Shown: positions 6,207 to 40,482 of the stretch, in pieces | Numbering within the stretch: the stretch's first letter is position 1 | Layout: each line of letters opens with the position of its first letter | Source: Acetobacter suratthaniensis | GTDB lineage: Bacteria > Pseudomonadota > Alphaproteobacteria > Acetobacterales > Acetobacteraceae | NCBI RefSeq assembly: GCF_017377745.1 | Contig: NZ_JAFVMG010000001.1 | Span: 124,001-188,000 of the forward strand | DNA length: 64,000 nt | Direction: 5' to 3' | The notes under the pieces: generated by a model | Database searches by the model: none | Told to the model about the DNA's origin: nothing | Seen by the model: the letters and a program-made list of their open reading frames with translations, nothing else | Translations under genes and position numbers: made by a program

Positions 6207-6727
6207 ACACAGGCCGGACTATATCTGGCGAAAAGGGTGGTCTTGGGGACGTGGAGACGAAACAAGAATCGCAGTGCGACGTTCAGACGATTGATCGGAT
6301 TGACGTAAACCGCATCATGCAGGCGATTCCACACAGATATCCTTTCCTTCTTATTGACCGGATGGAAGATATCGTTCTGGGTGTGAAAGCAACCGGAATT
6401 AAGAATGTCTCGGTAAACGAGCCGTTTTTCCCGGGGCATTTTCCGGGGCGGCCGGTTATGCCGGGCGTGCTCATCGTGGAAGCCATGGCGCAGACGGCGG
6501 CAACGCTTGTCGTGCTGACGCTGGGTGAAGCGTTTGAAGGTAAGCTGGTCTATTTCATGACCATCGAGGGCGCCAAGTTCCGCCGTCCGGTTGAGCCGGG
6601 CGACCAGTTGCGTATCCATGTGACCAAAGAGCGTCATCGCTCCAATGTCTGGAAATTCAAGGGCGAGGCTCATGTTGATGGCATTGTGGTGGCAGAAGCC
6701 TCCTTCAGTGCCATGATAATGGGCTAA
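6203..6727 (+). CDS. fabZ: 3-hydroxyacyl-ACP dehydratase FabZ
   Basis: A hotdog-fold dehydratase of fatty acid synthesis, up to 174 residues. The core begins at IMQAIPHRYPFLLID and includes FFPGHFPGRPVMPGV, whose His (about residue 79 from this start) pairs with the Glu of VLIVEAMAQ as catalytic residues. GTG 6203 overlaps the lpxD stop as GTGA. An in-frame GTG at 6251 would give 158 residues, closer to the usual FabZ length of about 150, and could be the true start. FabZ competes with LpxA and LpxD for 3-hydroxyacyl-ACP, which explains its conserved place between them. Confidence 0.95.
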   Translation: MNTGRTISGEKGGLGDVETKQESQCDVQTIDRIDVNRIMQAIPHRYPFLLIDRMEDIVLGVKATGIKNVSVNEPFFPGHFPGRPVMPGVLIVEAMAQTAATLVVLTLGEAFEGKLVYFMTIEGAKFRRPVEPGDQLRIHVTKERHRSNVWKFKGEAHVDGIVVAEASFSAMIMG

Positions 6728-6756
6728 TTGCCTCGTATTCAGGGCAGGGTACAGTG

Positions 6757-6785
6757 GTTTGCTTGTGCGGTAAAACCGTGCAAAC
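6757..6785 (+). other. Imperfect hairpin in the fabZ-lpxA gap
   Basis: In the 107-base gap the arms GTTTGC (6757-6762) and GCAAAC (6780-6785) enclose CGGT/ACCG around an AAA loop, with uneven spacers of 5 and 1 bases. No U-tract follows, so it is not a good intrinsic terminator. It could be an operator, a weak attenuator or an RNA processing site between two otherwise co-directional genes. This is seen in sequence only; any function is a guess. Confidence 0.3.
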
Positions 6786-6834
6786 TGCTGAGTATGGTAC
6801 GCGACTTGCGTAAGGTAGTGGGTAGGAAATTAAC

Positions 6835-7692
6835 GTGGTGCACGTTGTAAAGGAAGCTAGAGCGACCGTTATCCACCCAACTGCGATTGTCGCACCCGGT
6901 GCTCAACTGGGCGACGGTGTGACCATTGGACCATGGTGTTCGGTTGGGCCGGATGTCGTGATCGAAGACGGCGTGGAACTCATTTCCCATGTGGTGGTGG
7001 ATGGTCACACCCGTCTCGGCGCTGCCTCACGGTATTTTCCTTTCTGCACAGTTGGCATGGCGCCGCAGGATCTCAAATACAAGGGTGAGCCAACGCGGTG
7101 CGAGGTGGGTGCGCGTACGGTTGTGCGTGAGCATGTCACCATCCATCGCGGCACAGCGATGGGGGCGGGCATTACCCGTGTCGGTACTGATGTGCTGATT
7201 ATGGCCAACGCTCATGTCGCGCATGACTGCGTGGTGGGTAACCGCGCGATTATTGTGAACAACGTGGTCATGGGTGGCCATGTCTGTATTGGTGATGACG
7301 CCCGTATTATGGGGTCTGCCGCTATTCACCAGTTTGTCCGCATTGGCCACGCAGCCCTTGTGGGTGGTGTAACCGGGGTGGAAGCTGATATCATCCCCTA
7401 TGGAAGTGTGCTGGGTAACCGTGCGCGACTGGTCGGGCTGCATTGGATATGGCTGCGCCGCAATGGCGTGAAATCTGATGAAATCCATCGGATGCGAAAG
7501 GCTTTTCTGAGCCTGTACCCCAAAAATGGTGGTGATCAGCCTTTTGCCGTCCGCCTTGACGCTGTCCGGCAGGCGTTTGCGCAGGATCAGCGCGTGCAGG
7601 AAATCCTTGCCTTTATTGATGCGCCGAGTAGCCGCGGCCTTGTGCGTTCCGCTCGTGAGCAGGGACGTGGTCAGGATATGGAAGACGCGTGA
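6835..7692 (+). CDS. lpxA: Acyl-ACP:UDP-N-acetylglucosamine O-acyltransferase LpxA
   Basis: 285 residues that perform the first step of lipid A synthesis. The N-terminal two thirds is a hexapeptide-repeat left-handed beta helix starting VIHPTAIVAPGAQLGDG. The segment ANAHVAHDCVVGN contains His130, matching the catalytic histidine of E. coli LpxA. A helical C-terminal domain (about 200-275) follows. The start is a GTG preceded by AGGAAA; GTG 6838 is an equivalent alternative. A 107-base gap separates it from fabZ, the largest within this operon. The stop overlaps the next gene by 4 bases. Confidence 0.97.
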   Translation: MVHVVKEARATVIHPTAIVAPGAQLGDGVTIGPWCSVGPDVVIEDGVELISHVVVDGHTRLGAASRYFPFCTVGMAPQDLKYKGEPTRCEVGARTVVREHVTIHRGTAMGAGITRVGTDVLIMANAHVAHDCVVGNRAIIVNNVVMGGHVCIGDDARIMGSAAIHQFVRIGHAALVGGVTGVEADIIPYGSVLGNRARLVGLHWIWLRRNGVKSDEIHRMRKAFLSLYPKNGGDQPFAVRLDAVRQAFAQDQRVQEILAFIDAPSSRGLVRSAREQGRGQDMEDA

Positions 7693-34428: not shown

Positions 34429-36927
34429 TCAGCTTGCGGGTGCGTCCGCATCGCGCATCAGCAGTACCTGCCGGGATGCGACGATAATCCCCTGTTCATG
34501 AAAAGCCTGCCACAGTGCGCGCAGGGCTATGGGTCTGGCGAGTTTGATGGTCAGATCCGCACGGGCGGTGGCGGTGCCGGTCAGCAGCACCGTGCCATCC
34601 TCTACCGATGTCATGTCCACCGTAACAGGGGCAAGGCCGTCCACGGCGTCACAGGCGCTCAGTGTGTCAGCAATGACCTGCATCGCGTGGTTGAGGTCGG
34701 AGGAGAACGGCACATCAAGCGTTACGGTAAACACGCCGGGTTTCTGTGCCGCAGTGGCGTTCTTGACCGCCGAGGTAATGAACTGCGAGTTCGGCACGAT
34801 CATGATGGATTTGTCGTCCAGCAGGATGTCGGTAGACCGCACGCTGATCCGCCCTACCTTGCCCGTTACACCGGCAATCGTCACGGTATCACCCACCGAG
34901 ACAGGGCGTTCGGCCATCAGGATAATGCCTGAAACGAAATTCTGCACGATGGATTGCAGACCAAACCCGATCCCGACCGACAGCGCGCTGACAACCCATG
35001 TCAGGCTTTTGACTGTCACCCCCAGCACCGACAGCATGGCCAGTCCGATGAGAATCCACGCAGAATATCCCAAAATACCCAGAATGGAGGCCTGTGCCCC
35101 CGTATCCAGCCGGGTGGTGGGGAAAAACTTCTGGCTGAACCAGCTTTTGACCAGATTGATGACGTAGTGCCCGGCTATCAGCAGCCCGACACAGAGCAGT
35201 ACGGCATTGAGCGAGACAAAATGTGTTTCGGCATTGGTCTGGCCATTAAACAGGTAGCCAAGCTGCGCCCATACCTGCGAGGGGTCAAACCCACCGCCTG
35301 AACTGGCAACAGCAAACAGAACCACCAGCAGCAGCAGATTGACCGCGCCGGGAATAAGCACACTGATCTGGTTGACCAGCCGTGCCGGAATGCCCAGAGC
35401 TGTCAGGCGTTGGCCAAGGCTGCCATGCGCGCACAGGGCTGTGGCGCATAGCGTGCTGGACAGGAGCGAGACCAGCAGCAGGCCGGAAAGCGTGATACTC
35501 ATCATGCTCAGCCATGAGATGATGGTATAGGCCAGCGGAATATAGCCCGAAAACACAGCCAGCCAGCAGATAATAGCCACGGTCATGGCCAGACTGCGCA
35601 GAAACTGCGCGAGGGGCGGGTTATCTTCGTCTTCCGTATTGGCGGTAACCCGTAGCTCCCGCGGGATCGCGAACAGCAAGGGGCTGACCGCCAGCGTATA
35701 GGCGCCATCCATCAACTGCACGGACAGCAGGGACAGGCCGCTATGTGTGTCCATATAGCGCAGCGCACCGCGCACCAGCATGGCGACGGCCAGCCATGCG
35801 GGGAACAGGCGCAGGTTTCTGGCCAGTTCGTCGGGCATGGTGAAAACCCGCCATTCCTTCATGCGTGAGAACAGGCACCAGCCCAGTTCCAGTACAAAGC
35901 CGCACAGGGGAGCCTGTGTTGCCACCATGTCGGCCAGCACGGCCAGATCACCCTGTGCGGCAGGGTTATCGAACGACAGGATGTTCCACAGGATCTGGAA
36001 GGAAAAACCCCAGGCGGCTGTGGCAATGGCCGCACAGGCGAGGGTGGCTGTAATCGGGCGCAGGCGGCCAAAGGGTACAAAGCGGGTAATCAGCCTGCGT
36101 ACAGGGCCGTGGCAGCCAAGCCAGAGCGCCATGAGCAGGGCCGTGCCCGCCATTCCGCCCAGAGTGATAAACACGCGCGAGCCGCTAAAGGCGACCCCCG
36201 TCAGGGCGACGGTCTGCTGGGAAAGGTCATGCAGGTGGTTGCTGTCCTGCCGGAAGGCGCTGATCAGCCCTGACCAGAAATTGATACCTAGCGGCGAGGG
36301 AAAACGCTGCCAGAGCGTTGCCTGCTGAATGGCGCTGCCATGCTGGCGCAGGGCGCTGATAAGCTGCTGGGCTTCCGCCTGATACAGCTTTAGCCGCACC
36401 ATGCGGGTGTCCACCTCTTTCTGGCGGCGTGTCAGGGTATTGCGCTGCTCGGTAATGGAGGCGGCTTCTGCCGGGTCGCCGGAGGCGGGAGGCTTGCCCA
36501 GAATATCCAGAAAGTTCTGGTACATTGCATGGTAGGGCTTCAGCCGCGCCATGAGCGTATCGGCCTGCGTGGCGACAGCCGTTGCGCGTTGCAGCAACGT
36601 GGCCAGATCAGCGGAGGTATGGCCTGTATCGTGGTCTTGCAGGCCGGTGGTGTAAATGGTGCGGATTTCCGCTTCCATTGCGTCCAGCGTCTGATCGGGC
36701 GCGCTGTTTTCAGCGCGGGCGATAAAGGCGCTGGCCAGCCCGCCGGGTACGGTGGTGCCTACGGTCGGTTGTGTCGTATCAGCCGATGGGGCGGCTGGCG
36801 TTGTGTCGGTGCGTGTGGTGGCGGCGGTGGCTGCCGTGGCAAGGGCAGGCGCGGCAAGCAGGGCAAGGGCCAGCCCCGCAGGTCGGAGCAGGCGGCGCAA
36901 AGAGGAGAAAAAAAGCTGATGGCGCAT
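34429..36927 (-). CDS. Large MscS-family mechanosensitive channel (DUF3772 type)
   Basis: 832 residues. A signal peptide (about 1-32) precedes a periplasmic coiled region (DUF3772-like, about 70-230) and roughly eight TM helices. The pore-lining TM3-like helix and MscS beta domain follow, with GIGFGLQSIVQNFVSGIIL, PVSVGDTVTIAGVTGKV and PNSQFITSAVKN (about 650-745), then an alpha-beta C-terminus. Such MscK/YbdG-like proteins act in osmotic downshock and need not be plain emergency valves. It converges with dnaB and lies downstream of mlaEF and a small lipoprotein on the same strand. Confidence 0.9.
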   Translation of the reverse strand: MRHQLFFSSLRRLLRPAGLALALLAAPALATAATAATTRTDTTPAAPSADTTQPTVGTTVPGGLASAFIARAENSAPDQTLDAMEAEIRTIYTTGLQDHDTGHTSADLATLLQRATAVATQADTLMARLKPYHAMYQNFLDILGKPPASGDPAEAASITEQRNTLTRRQKEVDTRMVRLKLYQAEAQQLISALRQHGSAIQQATLWQRFPSPLGINFWSGLISAFRQDSNHLHDLSQQTVALTGVAFSGSRVFITLGGMAGTALLMALWLGCHGPVRRLITRFVPFGRLRPITATLACAAIATAAWGFSFQILWNILSFDNPAAQGDLAVLADMVATQAPLCGFVLELGWCLFSRMKEWRVFTMPDELARNLRLFPAWLAVAMLVRGALRYMDTHSGLSLLSVQLMDGAYTLAVSPLLFAIPRELRVTANTEDEDNPPLAQFLRSLAMTVAIICWLAVFSGYIPLAYTIISWLSMMSITLSGLLLVSLLSSTLCATALCAHGSLGQRLTALGIPARLVNQISVLIPGAVNLLLLVVLFAVASSGGGFDPSQVWAQLGYLFNGQTNAETHFVSLNAVLLCVGLLIAGHYVINLVKSWFSQKFFPTTRLDTGAQASILGILGYSAWILIGLAMLSVLGVTVKSLTWVVSALSVGIGFGLQSIVQNFVSGIILMAERPVSVGDTVTIAGVTGKVGRISVRSTDILLDDKSIMIVPNSQFITSAVKNATAAQKPGVFTVTLDVPFSSDLNHAMQVIADTLSACDAVDGLAPVTVDMTSVEDGTVLLTGTATARADLTIKLARPIALRALWQAFHEQGIIVASRQVLLMRDADAPAS

Positions 36928-37039
36928 CGGGCAGTCGTATCTCCGCTTTACCGTATGCCTTGCGTGACTGTCCTGAGCGCGAGCCTCCTGAAAGCAGGGG
37001 GGAAGGGATCAGGGGCGCTCGGTCAGGCCGGGAGACAGC

Positions 37040-37183
37040 TTAGGTGTTGCTGTTCTGGATATGATCGCGGAACCCCAGTTTTTCGAGCTGAGCGGGGGAG
37101 GTAATATGGCGGGGGGTCGAATGGAACATCCCGCACGCCGAAAGGCCGAGCGCACAAGCCAGCAGCAGGACTGCACGTTTCAT
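37040..37183 (-). CDS. 47-residue lipoprotein
   Basis: A short gene that is easily missed. It reads MKRAVLLLACALGLSACGMF and then a 27-residue tail ending HIQNSNT. The signal peptide has a perfect lipobox, LSAC, with Cys at residue 17, so the mature lipoprotein would be about 31 residues, polar, with no Asp at +2 (Gly follows), suggesting outer membrane sorting. GGAGAAAG lies upstream of the ATG. It sits 100 bases after mlaF and 112 before the MscS gene, all on the minus strand. I do not recognise a family. Confidence 0.72.
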   Translation of the reverse strand: MKRAVLLLACALGLSACGMFHSTPRHITSPAQLEKLGFRDHIQNSNT

Positions 37184-37283
37184 GATGTTGTCTTTCTCCA
37201 CGGTTGACTGGCCGTTTCACTGTCTTCTTTCTATCTCACCCGCAGGCAGTGCGGGCAAGCGAAGAAGTGCGCCCAGCCGCTCT

Positions 37284-38060
37284 CTAACGACGCAGTTCCA
37301 TGGTGATAGGCCCTTCGCGGCGGCCATGGGTGAACTGATCCACATAGGGGTTGCCGCTCTCCATCAGGGTGCTGGCGGCCCCCTGCCAGATCAGCCGCCC
37401 CTGATAGAGCATGGCCGCCTGATCGCCTATCCGCTGGGCGGAGGCCATGTCATGCGTGATGGCAATGGCGGTGGAGCCGAGTGTTTTGACGCAGTTTACA
37501 ATCAGCCCGTCGATGACAGCCCCCATGATCGGGTCCAGCCCGGTTGTGGGTTCATCAAAAAACAGCATGTCCGGGCGTGCGGCGATAGCGCGTGCAAGGC
37601 CCACACGCTTTTGCATGCCGCCTGAAAGTTCCGCCGGGTAAAGATCGCCCACGGATGGGTCAAGCCCGACCTGTGTCAGGATTTCGCCCGCATGGGTGCG
37701 GGCATTACGGCGGGAAAGATGCTTGCGCGCGAGAAGCCCGAAGGTGACATTTTCCCATACGGGCAGGCTGTCAAACAGGGCGGCGTTCTGGAACAGCATG
37801 CCTATTTCGCCGCGCAGGCGCTCGCGGCGGCTGGCGGGGGCGCTGAGAATGTTTTCACCGTCGATTTCAATCACGCCGGAATCGGGCGTCATAAGGCCCA
37901 GCAGGCAGCGCAGCAGAACCGATTTACCGCTTCCTGACCCGCCAATGATTACGCATGAAGTACCCTGCGCCACATCAAGTGTGACGCCATCGAGCACCTT
38001 TTTGCTGCCAAAAGATTTGTGCAGGTCACGGATACGGATTTTCGGAGGCGCATCTGTCAT
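37284..38060 (-). CDS. mlaF: Phospholipid transport ABC ATPase MlaF
   Basis: 258 residues. ABC ATPase motifs: Walker A GGSGSGKSVLL, Q-loop LFQNAALFDSLPVW, signature LSGGMQKRVGLARAI, Walker B MLFFDEPTTGLDP and His in ITHDM. The LFQ..ALFDSL and PTTGLDPI sequences are typical of the Mla/Mkl group, which moves phospholipids between inner and outer membrane. It is 24 bases downstream of mlaE. The third member, the MCE protein MlaD, does not follow as it usually would. Confidence 0.93.
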   Translation of the reverse strand: MTDAPPKIRIRDLHKSFGSKKVLDGVTLDVAQGTSCVIIGGSGSGKSVLLRCLLGLMTPDSGVIEIDGENILSAPASRRERLRGEIGMLFQNAALFDSLPVWENVTFGLLARKHLSRRNARTHAGEILTQVGLDPSVGDLYPAELSGGMQKRVGLARAIAARPDMLFFDEPTTGLDPIMGAVIDGLIVNCVKTLGSTAIAITHDMASAQRIGDQAAMLYQGRLIWQGAASTLMESGNPYVDQFTHGRREGPITMELRR

Positions 38061-38084
38061 GCGGGGCGGCGGTCCTTATGGTGT

Positions 38085-38870
38085 TCAGTGCGAGAAAAAC
38101 AGGTCCGTTATCAGATAATCGAACGCCAGTAGTAAAATGGAGGCAGCGACCACGGCAGATGTGGTGGCAGACCCCACGCCCTCGGCCCCGCCCTTGCTGT
38201 TATAGCCGTGGTAACAGCCCATGAGGGTGATCAGAAAGCCGAACAGAGCGGCCTTGACCAGCCCGACCGTGACATCCTCGGCTTTCAGGGCGTTGAGGGT
38301 GGCGGTAATATAGGCGGTGGCGGAAAAATCGAGCTTGACCACTGCCACGAGAAAACCACCGGCAACCCCCAGCACATCGGCTATCAGCACCAGCAGGGGC
38401 AGGGCTACAAGCCCGGCCAGCAGGCGTGGGGCCACCAGATATTTCATGGGGTTGGTGGACAGGGTATCCAGCGCATCAATCTGGTCGGTTACGCGCATGG
38501 TGCCAATCTGGGCAGCCATGGCAGCGCCCACCCGTCCGGCCACCATAAGCCCTGCCAGAACCGGCCCTAGCTCACGGGTAACGGCCAGTACCACAATACC
38601 GGCAATCGCACTCTGGGCATGGTACTGTGCAAAGCCGGTATAGGATTGCAACGCAATCACCCCGCCTGAAAACAGGGCGGTTAGCGCTACAACGGGGAGC
38701 GAGAAAAAACCCGTCTCGAGAAAACTGCCCCAAAAGACGCGCCCGTAAAACGGCGGGCGGACAATATGCGACAGGCCAGACAGCGCGAACAGCGCGATCG
38801 CCCCCGTTGCGCGGAGAAGGGAAAGGGTAGCGCGGCCAATGCCGGCCACGAGATCGAGCGCCATATCCAT
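38085..38870 (-). CDS. mlaE: Phospholipid transport ABC permease MlaE
   Basis: 261 residues with five or six hydrophobic helices. Family signatures are GGVIALQSYTGFAQY, VTRELGPVLAGLMVAGRVGAAMA and MRVTDQIDALDTLSTNPMKYLVAPRL, the conserved MlaE core. A C-terminal ITLMGCYHGYNSKGGAEGVG follows. MlaE is the membrane subunit of the MlaFEDB phospholipid transporter that keeps outer membrane asymmetry. It is divergent from radA, with about 220 bases between them. Confidence 0.95.
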   Translation of the reverse strand: MDMALDLVAGIGRATLSLLRATGAIALFALSGLSHIVRPPFYGRVFWGSFLETGFFSLPVVALTALFSGGVIALQSYTGFAQYHAQSAIAGIVVLAVTRELGPVLAGLMVAGRVGAAMAAQIGTMRVTDQIDALDTLSTNPMKYLVAPRLLAGLVALPLLVLIADVLGVAGGFLVAVVKLDFSATAYITATLNALKAEDVTVGLVKAALFGFLITLMGCYHGYNSKGGAEGVGSATTSAVVAASILLLAFDYLITDLFFSH

Positions 38871-39093
38871 GGATCGGGGCTGTCTGCTCCTGCGTGGGGG
38901 TGGGTGCTGTATCGCTCTGCTGGCCTAGCGTGGAAGGAGGGGGTTCGTCAAAGTGCCTGTATGCGTCATGGGGGTAGGCAGGGGGGCTGCGGGCTTGAGT
39001 TTGTTCTTGTTTTATTCCATTTTATGCGGGAGCCGGAGCTAACCGGTGTCGTGCCGCGCCGGGTTAGGCCGCGCGGAGTTTCAAGGAGTGCCC

Positions 39094-40482
39094 GTGGCCA
39101 AAAAACCAGCCCGTCAGTACGGATGCACCGCCTGCGGAGCCGTACATGCCAAATGGGCCGGGCAGTGCGATGCCTGCCAGGAATGGAACACGCTTGAAGA
39201 ACTGGCGATAGAACCGCTGGCGGCGTCTTCTGCCGCACGGGCTGTGCCGGGGCGGCGTGTCCGGCTTGAGGCCTTGCAGGGTGTTGTACAGCCACCGCCG
39301 CGCGTGCGCTCGGGTATTGCCGAGCTGGATCGCGCACTGGGTGGGGGGTTGGTGCCTGCCTCTGTCGTGCTGGTGGGGGGCGATCCGGGGATCGGTAAAT
39401 CCACGCTGCTGTTGCAGGCCGCGAGCAAGCTGGCGGAACAGGGCGAGCGGGTTTTGTATATTTCGGGTGAAGAGGCGGTGGATCAGATCCGCCTGCGCGC
39501 CCGGCGGCTGGGGGTGGAAGGGGCAAAGCTGGAACTGGCGGCCTCCATCAATGTGGCGGACATTATCGCCACCGCCGAGGCCGAGGCTGATGTGCGGGTG
39601 GTGGTTATCGATTCTATCCAGACCATGTGGCTGGAAACGGTGGAAAGCGCTCCGGGCACGGTTTCGCAGGTGCGGGCCTGCGCGTTCGAGCTGATCCGCG
39701 CGGCCAAGCGCCGGGGGTTCTGTCTTATTCTGGTGGGGCATGTCACCAAGGAAGGGGCACTGGCAGGCCCGCGCGTGCTGGAACACATGGTGGATGCCGT
39801 CATGTATTTCGAGGGCGATCGCGGGCATCAGTTCCGTATCCTGCGCGCGGCCAAGAATCGCTATGGTGCGACGGATGAAATTGGCGTGTTCGCCATGACC
39901 GATCGCGGGCTGGAGGAAGTCAGTAACCCTTCCGCCCTGTTTCTGGCCGAGCGGCGGGGTAATATTGCCGGTTCCGCCGTCTTTGCCGGGCTTGAAGGGT
40001 CTCGCCCTGTCCTGCTGGAAGTGCAGGCCCTGCTCTCGCCCAAAGGGGGGGATGGCGCGCCCCGCCGTGCTGTTGTGGGCTGGGATGGCGGGCGGTTGGC
40101 CATGCTGCTTGCCGTGCTGGAAACCCGTTGCGGGCTGAAGCTTTCGGGCATGGATGTGTATCTGAACGTAGCCGGAGGGCTGAAAGTGGCGGAACCGGCG
40201 GCTGATCTGGCCGTGGCTGCCGCACTCGTTTCCGCAGCGACCGGCGTGCCGACCAGCCCCGGTGCGGTCTATTTTGGCGAAGTCGGGCTTTCGGGCGAGA
40301 TCAGGCAGGTTTCTCAGGCGGATTCCCGGCTGAAAGAAGCCGCCAAGCTGGGCTTTACCCAAGCTGTTCTGCCACGCCGTGTGGCGCGAGGCAGTGCGCC
40401 CACCCGCCCGCCGGAAGGGCTGAGCCTGCGAGAGAGCGGGCATATATCCGATCTGATCAGCCCGGATGCGCAAAGCGAGTAA
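39094..40482 (+). CDS. radA: DNA repair protein RadA
   Basis: 462 residues. An N-terminal four-Cys zinc finger (CTACGAVHAKWAGQCDAC) is followed by a RecA-like core with Walker A GGDPGIGKST and the RadA-specific KNRYG motif (RAAKNRYGATDE). A C-terminal Lon-protease-like domain (about 290-450; GGLKVAEPAADLAVAAALV) completes it. RadA promotes branch migration during recombination repair. GTG 39094 lies 5 bases after a perfect AAGGAG (39083-39088), which settles the start although the frame is open 16 codons further upstream. Confidence 0.97.
   Translation: MAKKPARQYGCTACGAVHAKWAGQCDACQEWNTLEELAIEPLAASSAARAVPGRRVRLEALQGVVQPPPRVRSGIAELDRALGGGLVPASVVLVGGDPGIGKSTLLLQAASKLAEQGERVLYISGEEAVDQIRLRARRLGVEGAKLELAASINVADIIATAEAEADVRVVVIDSIQTMWLETVESAPGTVSQVRACAFELIRAAKRRGFCLILVGHVTKEGALAGPRVLEHMVDAVMYFEGDRGHQFRILRAAKNRYGATDEIGVFAMTDRGLEEVSNPSALFLAERRGNIAGSAVFAGLEGSRPVLLEVQALLSPKGGDGAPRRAVVGWDGGRLAMLLAVLETRCGLKLSGMDVYLNVAGGLKVAEPAADLAVAAALVSAATGVPTSPGAVYFGEVGLSGEIRQVSQADSRLKEAAKLGFTQAVLPRRVARGSAPTRPPEGLSLRESGHISDLISPDAQSE

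Follow-up and report, generated by a model that had tools for sequence, protein, structure and literature searches.

In Acetobacter suratthaniensis, the genes for the permease (mlaE) and the ATPase (mlaF) of an Mla transporter are followed on the same strand by a 47-codon frame for a small lipoprotein, and then by a gene for an MscS-family channel. The initial annotation of this DNA placed the lipoprotein at the position of mlaD, which it held to be missing, and left three readings of the small frame side by side: an accessory of the transporter, an accessory of the channel, or an unrelated neighbour. Two questions arise, namely where the MlaD of this transporter is encoded, and whether the small frame is a gene and what its product may do. 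Both are addressed here for a window of 64,000 nucleotides, by which we mean the whole stretch of DNA that was analysed, and for the genomes related to it.

Gene content of the locus

On the minus strand of the window the order is mlaE, mlaF, the lipoprotein frame and the MscS-type gene. The product of mlaE (38085..38870; 261 aa) scores 254.1 bits with PF02405 (cut-off 22.5) and 237.9 bits with TIGR00056 (cut-off 212.2) and matches solved MlaE-type permeases at 1e-36 to 5e-46, yet it stays under the cut-off of the narrower MlaE model NF033619 (197 vs 315 bits). The mlaF product (37284..38060; 258 aa) is above the cut-off of PF00005 (ABC_tran); the NCBIfam MlaF model NF008809 ranks second for it with 173.2 bits, a score similar to those of other ATPase models and below the cut-off of 441. 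The two genes named at this locus are present, the assignment of the ATPase to MlaF being probable. The lipoprotein gene, recognised by its open frame, lipobox, family conservation and selection, extends over 37043..37183 on the minus strand with its stop codon at 37040-37042, and agrees with the tiny same-strand lipoprotein with a lipobox (L-S-A-C) described initially. The MscS-family gene (34429..36927, minus strand; 832 aa), which was identified by profile matches and carries a sub-cut-off match to DUF3772, begins 112 bases past this stop codon and does adjoin the lipoprotein, as was stated. Divergent from mlaE, on the plus strand, lies a gene at 39046..40482 (start approximate), in which KaiC-type ATPase, Zn-ribbon and ChlI domains were found and which we take to be radA.

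Genes of MlaD, MlaA and MlaC type lie elsewhere in the genome

A search of the rest of the genome for an MCE gene had been suggested, and the profile search of the contigs recovered four genes with the MCE domain (PF02470) and three with the MlaE domain (PF02405); none of the four MCE genes lies within the window. Two of the four have an MlaE gene no more than about 1 kb away (one on contig C45, one on contig C1 near 317 kb), and the other two are single-MCE genes unlinked to MlaE genes. One of the latter (C34:121892; 177 aa; 6725-7258 of locus L058) is found between NDUFA12 (L058 7314-7724) and DUF2155 genes; it scores 61.8 bits with PF02470 (cut-off 25.1) and 133.5 bits with the MlaD equivalog model TIGR04430, just below the cut-off of 135, and its product matches solved MlaD-type chains at 2e-19. 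The genes for MlaA (PF04333, 200.7 bits) and MlaC (PF05494, 106.8 bits) are neighbours on this contig, some 17 kb from the MCE gene. The claim that MlaD is missing is thus incorrect, and loss or replacement of MlaD is rejected in view of the unlinked MCE genes, including the MlaD-like one beside NDUFA12.

This arrangement has a precedent. In Alphaproteobacteria, according to the available excerpts of PMC5561183, NDUFA12 lies upstream of a single-MCE gene, in place of ABC transporter genes; likewise, the single-MCE gene here adjoins NDUFA12 and not ABC genes, so that an MlaD unlinked to mlaEF matches that description and the reading of a lipoprotein “instead of mlaD” does not hold. Unlike the arrangement in those excerpts, the genome here has a second unlinked single-MCE gene (C1:602409; 202 aa; L059 6296-6904), which is near an uppP/BacA gene and whose product shows 36% identity to the NDUFA12-side one over 138 columns and scores 94.6 bits on the MlaD model. 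For one mlaEF pair lacking an adjacent MCE gene there are two unlinked single-MCE genes of MlaD type, and two strong matches of the unlinked-MCE type in short open frames were seen in many genomes of the genus among the matches listed; a mixed or alternative MlaD ring is possible.

In comparison with the known MlaFEDB system, mlaE and mlaF match the MlaE and ABC ATPase profiles, and MlaD-, MlaA- and MlaC-type genes exist in the genome. What differs is that the order here is E-F, that MlaD is unlinked and beside NDUFA12, that MlaA and MlaC are together on C34, and that the lipoprotein matches no Mla subunit. We infer that the mlaEF pair is an ordinary Mla permease and ATPase, which would be served by MlaD from the NDUFA12 locus.

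No MlaD-like frame was detected in 76 loci with the lipoprotein, mlaF or a weak lipoprotein match, when the two unlinked MCE proteins were used as queries in a test whose control missed the own genome's two more distant MCE genes. Outside the genus, an mlaF locus was found at E<=1e-60 in 13 of 15 searched genomes (three of the 13 belonging to genus g82), and in 10 of these 13 the gene 3′ of mlaF, in the same orientation, is radA, at spacings from a one-base overlap (L113) to 871 bases. Since radA and not mlaD comes after mlaF in these loci, the absence of mlaD there is the usual state and not a replacement. It may be added that the order of radA differs in the Acetobacter lineage, being divergent from mlaE in the window and 3′ of mlaF outside the genus (loci among L093-L118).

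The small frame is a conserved gene under selection

Conservation of the 47-codon frame was examined with a single-protein search and two profiles. At E<=0.1, the former detected the frame in 47 of the 49 genomes of the genus. The full-length profile (A1) gave matches in 46 of 299 genomes, and many of these end within or shortly past the signal peptide; because they cover little beyond it, a profile of the mature part only (A2) was used for the counts. With A2 the lipoprotein was found in 48 of 49 genomes of the genus, including all 46 of good quality, the one miss being a genome that is 68% complete. There is one match per genome except in G045 (two; 9% contaminated) and G006, where the second match is weak (E 0.04) and contains stops. 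Across the Acetobacteraceae, at E<=0.05, A2 matched 33 of 397 genomes: 14 in g1, which is Acetobacter (25 loci belong to named Acetobacter records), 13 in g82, four in g113, and one each in g10 and g108. The proteins read from g82 retain the lipobox and a W-x-x-x-G-[YF]-x-x-G-L motif, and AGGAGG precedes the start, read as TTG in most, in 11 of 12. The single g113 match that was inspected (G160) looks real, and the g108 match is without a lipobox. A class-wide search matched four of 289 genomes including the own one; the other three are partial model matches that we take as chance, and the one inspected (G693) has no lipobox. Going by their sequences, relatives of the lipoprotein are present in g82 and g10, and probably in g113.

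The pattern of substitution is that of a coding sequence. Lack of conservation or a Ka/Ks near 1 across the frame had been named initially as grounds for dismissing it, and neither was observed: the median dN/dS was 0.32 with all pairs below 1 (457 of 1081 pairs with 0.1<dS<1.5, from 47 coding sequences; the pairs overlap and are not independent, and G012 was dropped as its start could not be placed). Substitutions at codon positions 1, 2 and 3 numbered 41, 30 and 107 in 12 disjoint pairs. The median dN/dS was 0.37 for the signal peptide and 0.50 for the mature part, which indicates that the mature part is less strictly held. Moreover, similarity drops in the 90 bases 3′ of the gene in all 11 pairs, and stays at about the level of the gene itself in the 85 bases 5′ of it in 7 of 11. 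On these grounds we consider the 47-codon frame a genuine gene under purifying selection, beyond what chance would give.

Sequence and family of the lipoprotein

The small frame reads MKRAVLLLACALGLSACGMFHSTPRHITSPAQLEKLGFRDHIQNSNT, with a signal peptide at residues 1-16, the lipobox LSAC, the lipobox cysteine at position 17 and Gly at +2. The sequence features of a bacterial lipoprotein are present, i.e. positive residues at the N-terminus, a hydrophobic stretch and a lipobox with an invariant Cys. In an alignment of 22 members (A1, hand-picked rows), Met1, Leu14, Cys17 and Gly37 are invariant, and the C-terminal part follows a consensus of about [KR]H[LM]TxxxQWExxGYxDxL, from which single members deviate. 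The corresponding segment of the window protein is ITSPAQLEKLGFRDHI, with Leu for the Trp and Phe for the Tyr of the consensus. Most members in the genus have 44-53 aa, and seven have 76-83 aa and lysine-rich tails (G024, G040, G010, G038, G009, G033 and G036). One Acetobacter group (L029, L031-L034, L036 and L037) carries an extension of about 30 residues that ends lysine-rich.

In the Pfam and NCBIfam copies searched, no model scores above its cut-off for the window protein, and no Pfam family comes up at E<=0.1. The 22 members gave weak matches to 10 Pfam and 23 NCBIfam models, among them the SA0632 family lipoprotein model (10 of 22 members, best E 0.00016). MCE, DUF330/PqiC, MlaA and MlaC domains were found neither in the window protein nor among the 10 weak Pfam families of the 22 members. 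Structure prediction for the full-length protein gave a poor model (mean pLDDT 63, pTM 0.26), with a helix for the signal peptide and two short turns of helix in the conserved part. A PDB search with the A2 profile gave a sole match of 9 residues to 7ong_A (SAKe6BE-L1), which was discarded. In the excerpts returned by a literature search on an Acetobacter small lipoprotein, Acetobacter MlaF and Mla of acetic acid bacteria, nothing relevant was found, only papers on Borrelia and on rice rhizobacteria.

Promoter-like elements upstream of the lipoprotein gene

Between mlaF and the lipoprotein gene, a scan of the window for the sigma-70 consensus gave no promoter, and no terminator-like site was found either. 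The region contains a bipartite element, CTTGCCC-N15-GAGATAGA, as an exact match at 37230..37259 on the minus strand, starting 76 bases before the ATG. With the last base of each box left free, it occurs with the same spacing in 30 of 47 genomes, and the spacer is 45% alike among 14 representatives. It may be read as a -35 box TTGCCC and an extended -10 box TGA-GATAGA, separated by a 17-base spacer. Among the 17 genomes without this pair, 11 carry CTCGC-N19-CAT at 62-66 bases before the start: nine out of the 11 in which the gene is not near mlaF (G025, G027, G032, G034, G018, G013, G028, G007 and G045), and G043 and G015. The loci concerned are L040-L045, L049, L050, L052, L053 and L184, nine of them with the gene away from mlaF. 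Neither pair was found in G016, G047, G011, G044, G020 and G031 (47 upstream regions, with G012 left out). The g82 genomes show yet another pair in 11 of 12 cases, namely TTCCGC and TGCTA, 15 bases apart, whose distance from the gene varies.

The CTTGCCC and CTCGC patterns are each present a single time in the 64-kb window, both strands taken together, where the former with three mismatches would be expected about once by chance. Both patterns were spotted by eye before counting, so that the conservation of letters inside the boxes is partly built in, and the evidence for the pairs consists of their counts and constant spacing. We regard these pairs of fixed spacing as candidate promoters with an extended -10. 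An RNA element between mlaF and the lipoprotein gene was considered and rejected: there is no Rfam match at E<=1 in 36800-39100, and a possible CCCGCA/TGCGGG hairpin falls in the spacer between the boxes. Because that spacer is only 45% alike, a promoter is preferred.

Gene neighbourhood and alternative explanations

In 34 of 48 genomes of the genus, including the G011/G044 branch, the lipoprotein gene shares the strand of mlaF and lies at most 300 bases 3′ of it; in G043 and G015 the two are 2.2 and 5.1 kb apart. The lipoprotein gene lies elsewhere in 11 of 48, where “elsewhere” means outside the fetched flanks with no measured distance, and where draft contigs may split the two genes; in the remaining genome (G006) the contig ends at the locus. 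The adjacency, together with the nearness in G043 and G015, indicates that the link is old within the genus, and we consider it inherited gene order in Acetobacter. Different genes follow the lipoprotein at the elsewhere-type loci, e.g. an MFS transporter and then an acetyltransferase, and a dehydratase gene is 3′ of it in the G043, G015 and G011 loci.

The adjacency to mlaF would suit an Mla accessory in Acetobacter, made from the mlaE-mlaF operon and acting as an outer-membrane anchor or guide for MlaA-MlaC or for MlaD. One of the closest known systems is the Mpc system of Brucella, for which the excerpts of PMC12436622 describe an Mla-like ABC transporter and a lipoprotein gene in one operon, with the MCE protein MpcD encoded within the operon and the lipoprotein MpcA being PqiC-like. 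Here, in contrast, none of the weak Pfam matches of the lipoprotein is to a PqiC/DUF330 model, and no MCE gene is beside mlaEF. Against a role as an Mla accessory stand the 11 genomes with the gene elsewhere and three g82 genomes in which the lipoprotein and mlaF are apart (on different contigs in G209, at about 0.4 Mb in G299 and about 0.9 Mb in G330), the family genomes with mlaF and no lipoprotein match (e.g. G049, G054, G056 and G058), and the promoter-like boxes that the lipoprotein gene has of its own. Adjacent in 34 genomes and apart in these others, the two genes leave a functional tie to Mla within Acetobacter possible and not favoured, and an accessory made from the operon is on balance unlikely.

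The promoter-like elements of its own in several lineages, the lack of fixed neighbours and the lysine-rich tails in one group would suit a stand-alone envelope lipoprotein with its own promoter and a stress or antimicrobial role outside any assembly machine, similar to the entericidins. However, there is no entericidin model among the 10 Pfam and 23 NCBIfam models weakly matched by the 22 members, and the presence in every good-quality genome of the genus is more housekeeping-like, which makes this explanation rather improbable.

A further candidate is LptM (YifL), described in excerpts of PMC10567701 as a small lipoprotein of the LPS translocon. The architecture, a short lipoprotein with a conserved mature peptide, is common to both, and a highly diverged LptM helping the maturation of LptD could be envisaged; most members match the LptM models weakly, NF047847 being hit by 15 of the 22 (lowest E 0.013) and PF13627 by eight (lowest E 0.23), and no LptM is above cut-off in the own genome. 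However, the window protein is far below both cut-offs (14.3 of 27.7 bits for NF047847, 10.2 of 27.3 bits for PF13627), its matches being limited to residues 1-18 and 4-18, and, as with the SA0632 model, they span only the signal peptide and the Cys. The unrelated SA0632 model even has the lower best E value, so that weak signal-peptide matches of this kind mean little; the missing LptM means little as well, since an LptM above the cut-off was found in only one of 14 control genomes. In addition, LptM carries a KGPL stretch, which is absent from the aligned members, and the conserved part of the window protein lies towards the C-terminus. We thus doubt strongly that the protein is an LptM, and retain the comparison only for the way in which such a lipoprotein may work.

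That the lipoprotein works with the MscS-family channel 3′ of it is the least probable of these explanations, and very much so, for in spite of the short gap of 112 bases in the window and of a same-strand MscS relative in 25 of 48 genomes, where many of the other loci were covered by flanks of just 1.5 kb, the distance to the channel gene, estimated from partial matches, varies and is much longer in e.g. L030, and where the lipoprotein lies elsewhere other genes come next, e.g. for an MFS transporter or a dehydratase.

A putative tethered peptide of acetic acid bacteria

Of the three readings left side by side initially, the evidence leans to the neighbour, with the addition of a putative promoter of its own, as the gene lies away from mlaF in 11 of 48 genomes and in the three g82 genomes in which both genes were located. 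The account that we somewhat prefer, as drawn from sequence comparison, is an independent, lineage-specific small lipoprotein with its own transcription, acting as a tethered docking peptide and being a neighbour of Mla by gene order. Its gene would probably be transcribed on its own from the promoter-like element, and given the adjacency to mlaF and the same-strand MscS relative in 25 genomes, read-through from mlaF or expression together with mscS is possible. The product would be exported by Sec and processed by signal peptidase II. In E. coli the residue at +2 governs sorting by Lol, and with Gly or Ser at this position the lipoprotein would be expected to reach the outer membrane. The mature part of about 30 residues might then form a flexible tether and, at the consensus QWExxGYxDxL, a short amphipathic helix for docking on a partner in the outer membrane or the periplasm, a small tethered peptide acting by analogy as LptM does on LptD. 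A tethered peptide of this size would hardly serve as an enzyme or a channel on its own, and docking on a partner is hence its likeliest use; the docking helix is a guess, as the structure model is poor. A bolder version, to which we give limited credence, would make the protein an envelope assembly factor of acetic acid bacteria, in which the outer-membrane-tethered peptide of about 30 residues uses its WxxxGYxxxL motif to switch or mature an outer-membrane machine (BAM, Mla or the LPS translocon) and is expressed from its own conserved promoter.

An mlaEF pair with no adjoining mlaD is ordinary in Alphaproteobacteria and calls for no replacement subunit. The lipoprotein family is new and of an ordinary kind, that of small envelope lipoproteins, well supported as a gene and so far unsupported as a component of Mla. 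With it, one more conserved family of small proteins is added to those of bacteria noted for life in acetic acid and ethanol, conditions under which the outer membrane is important.
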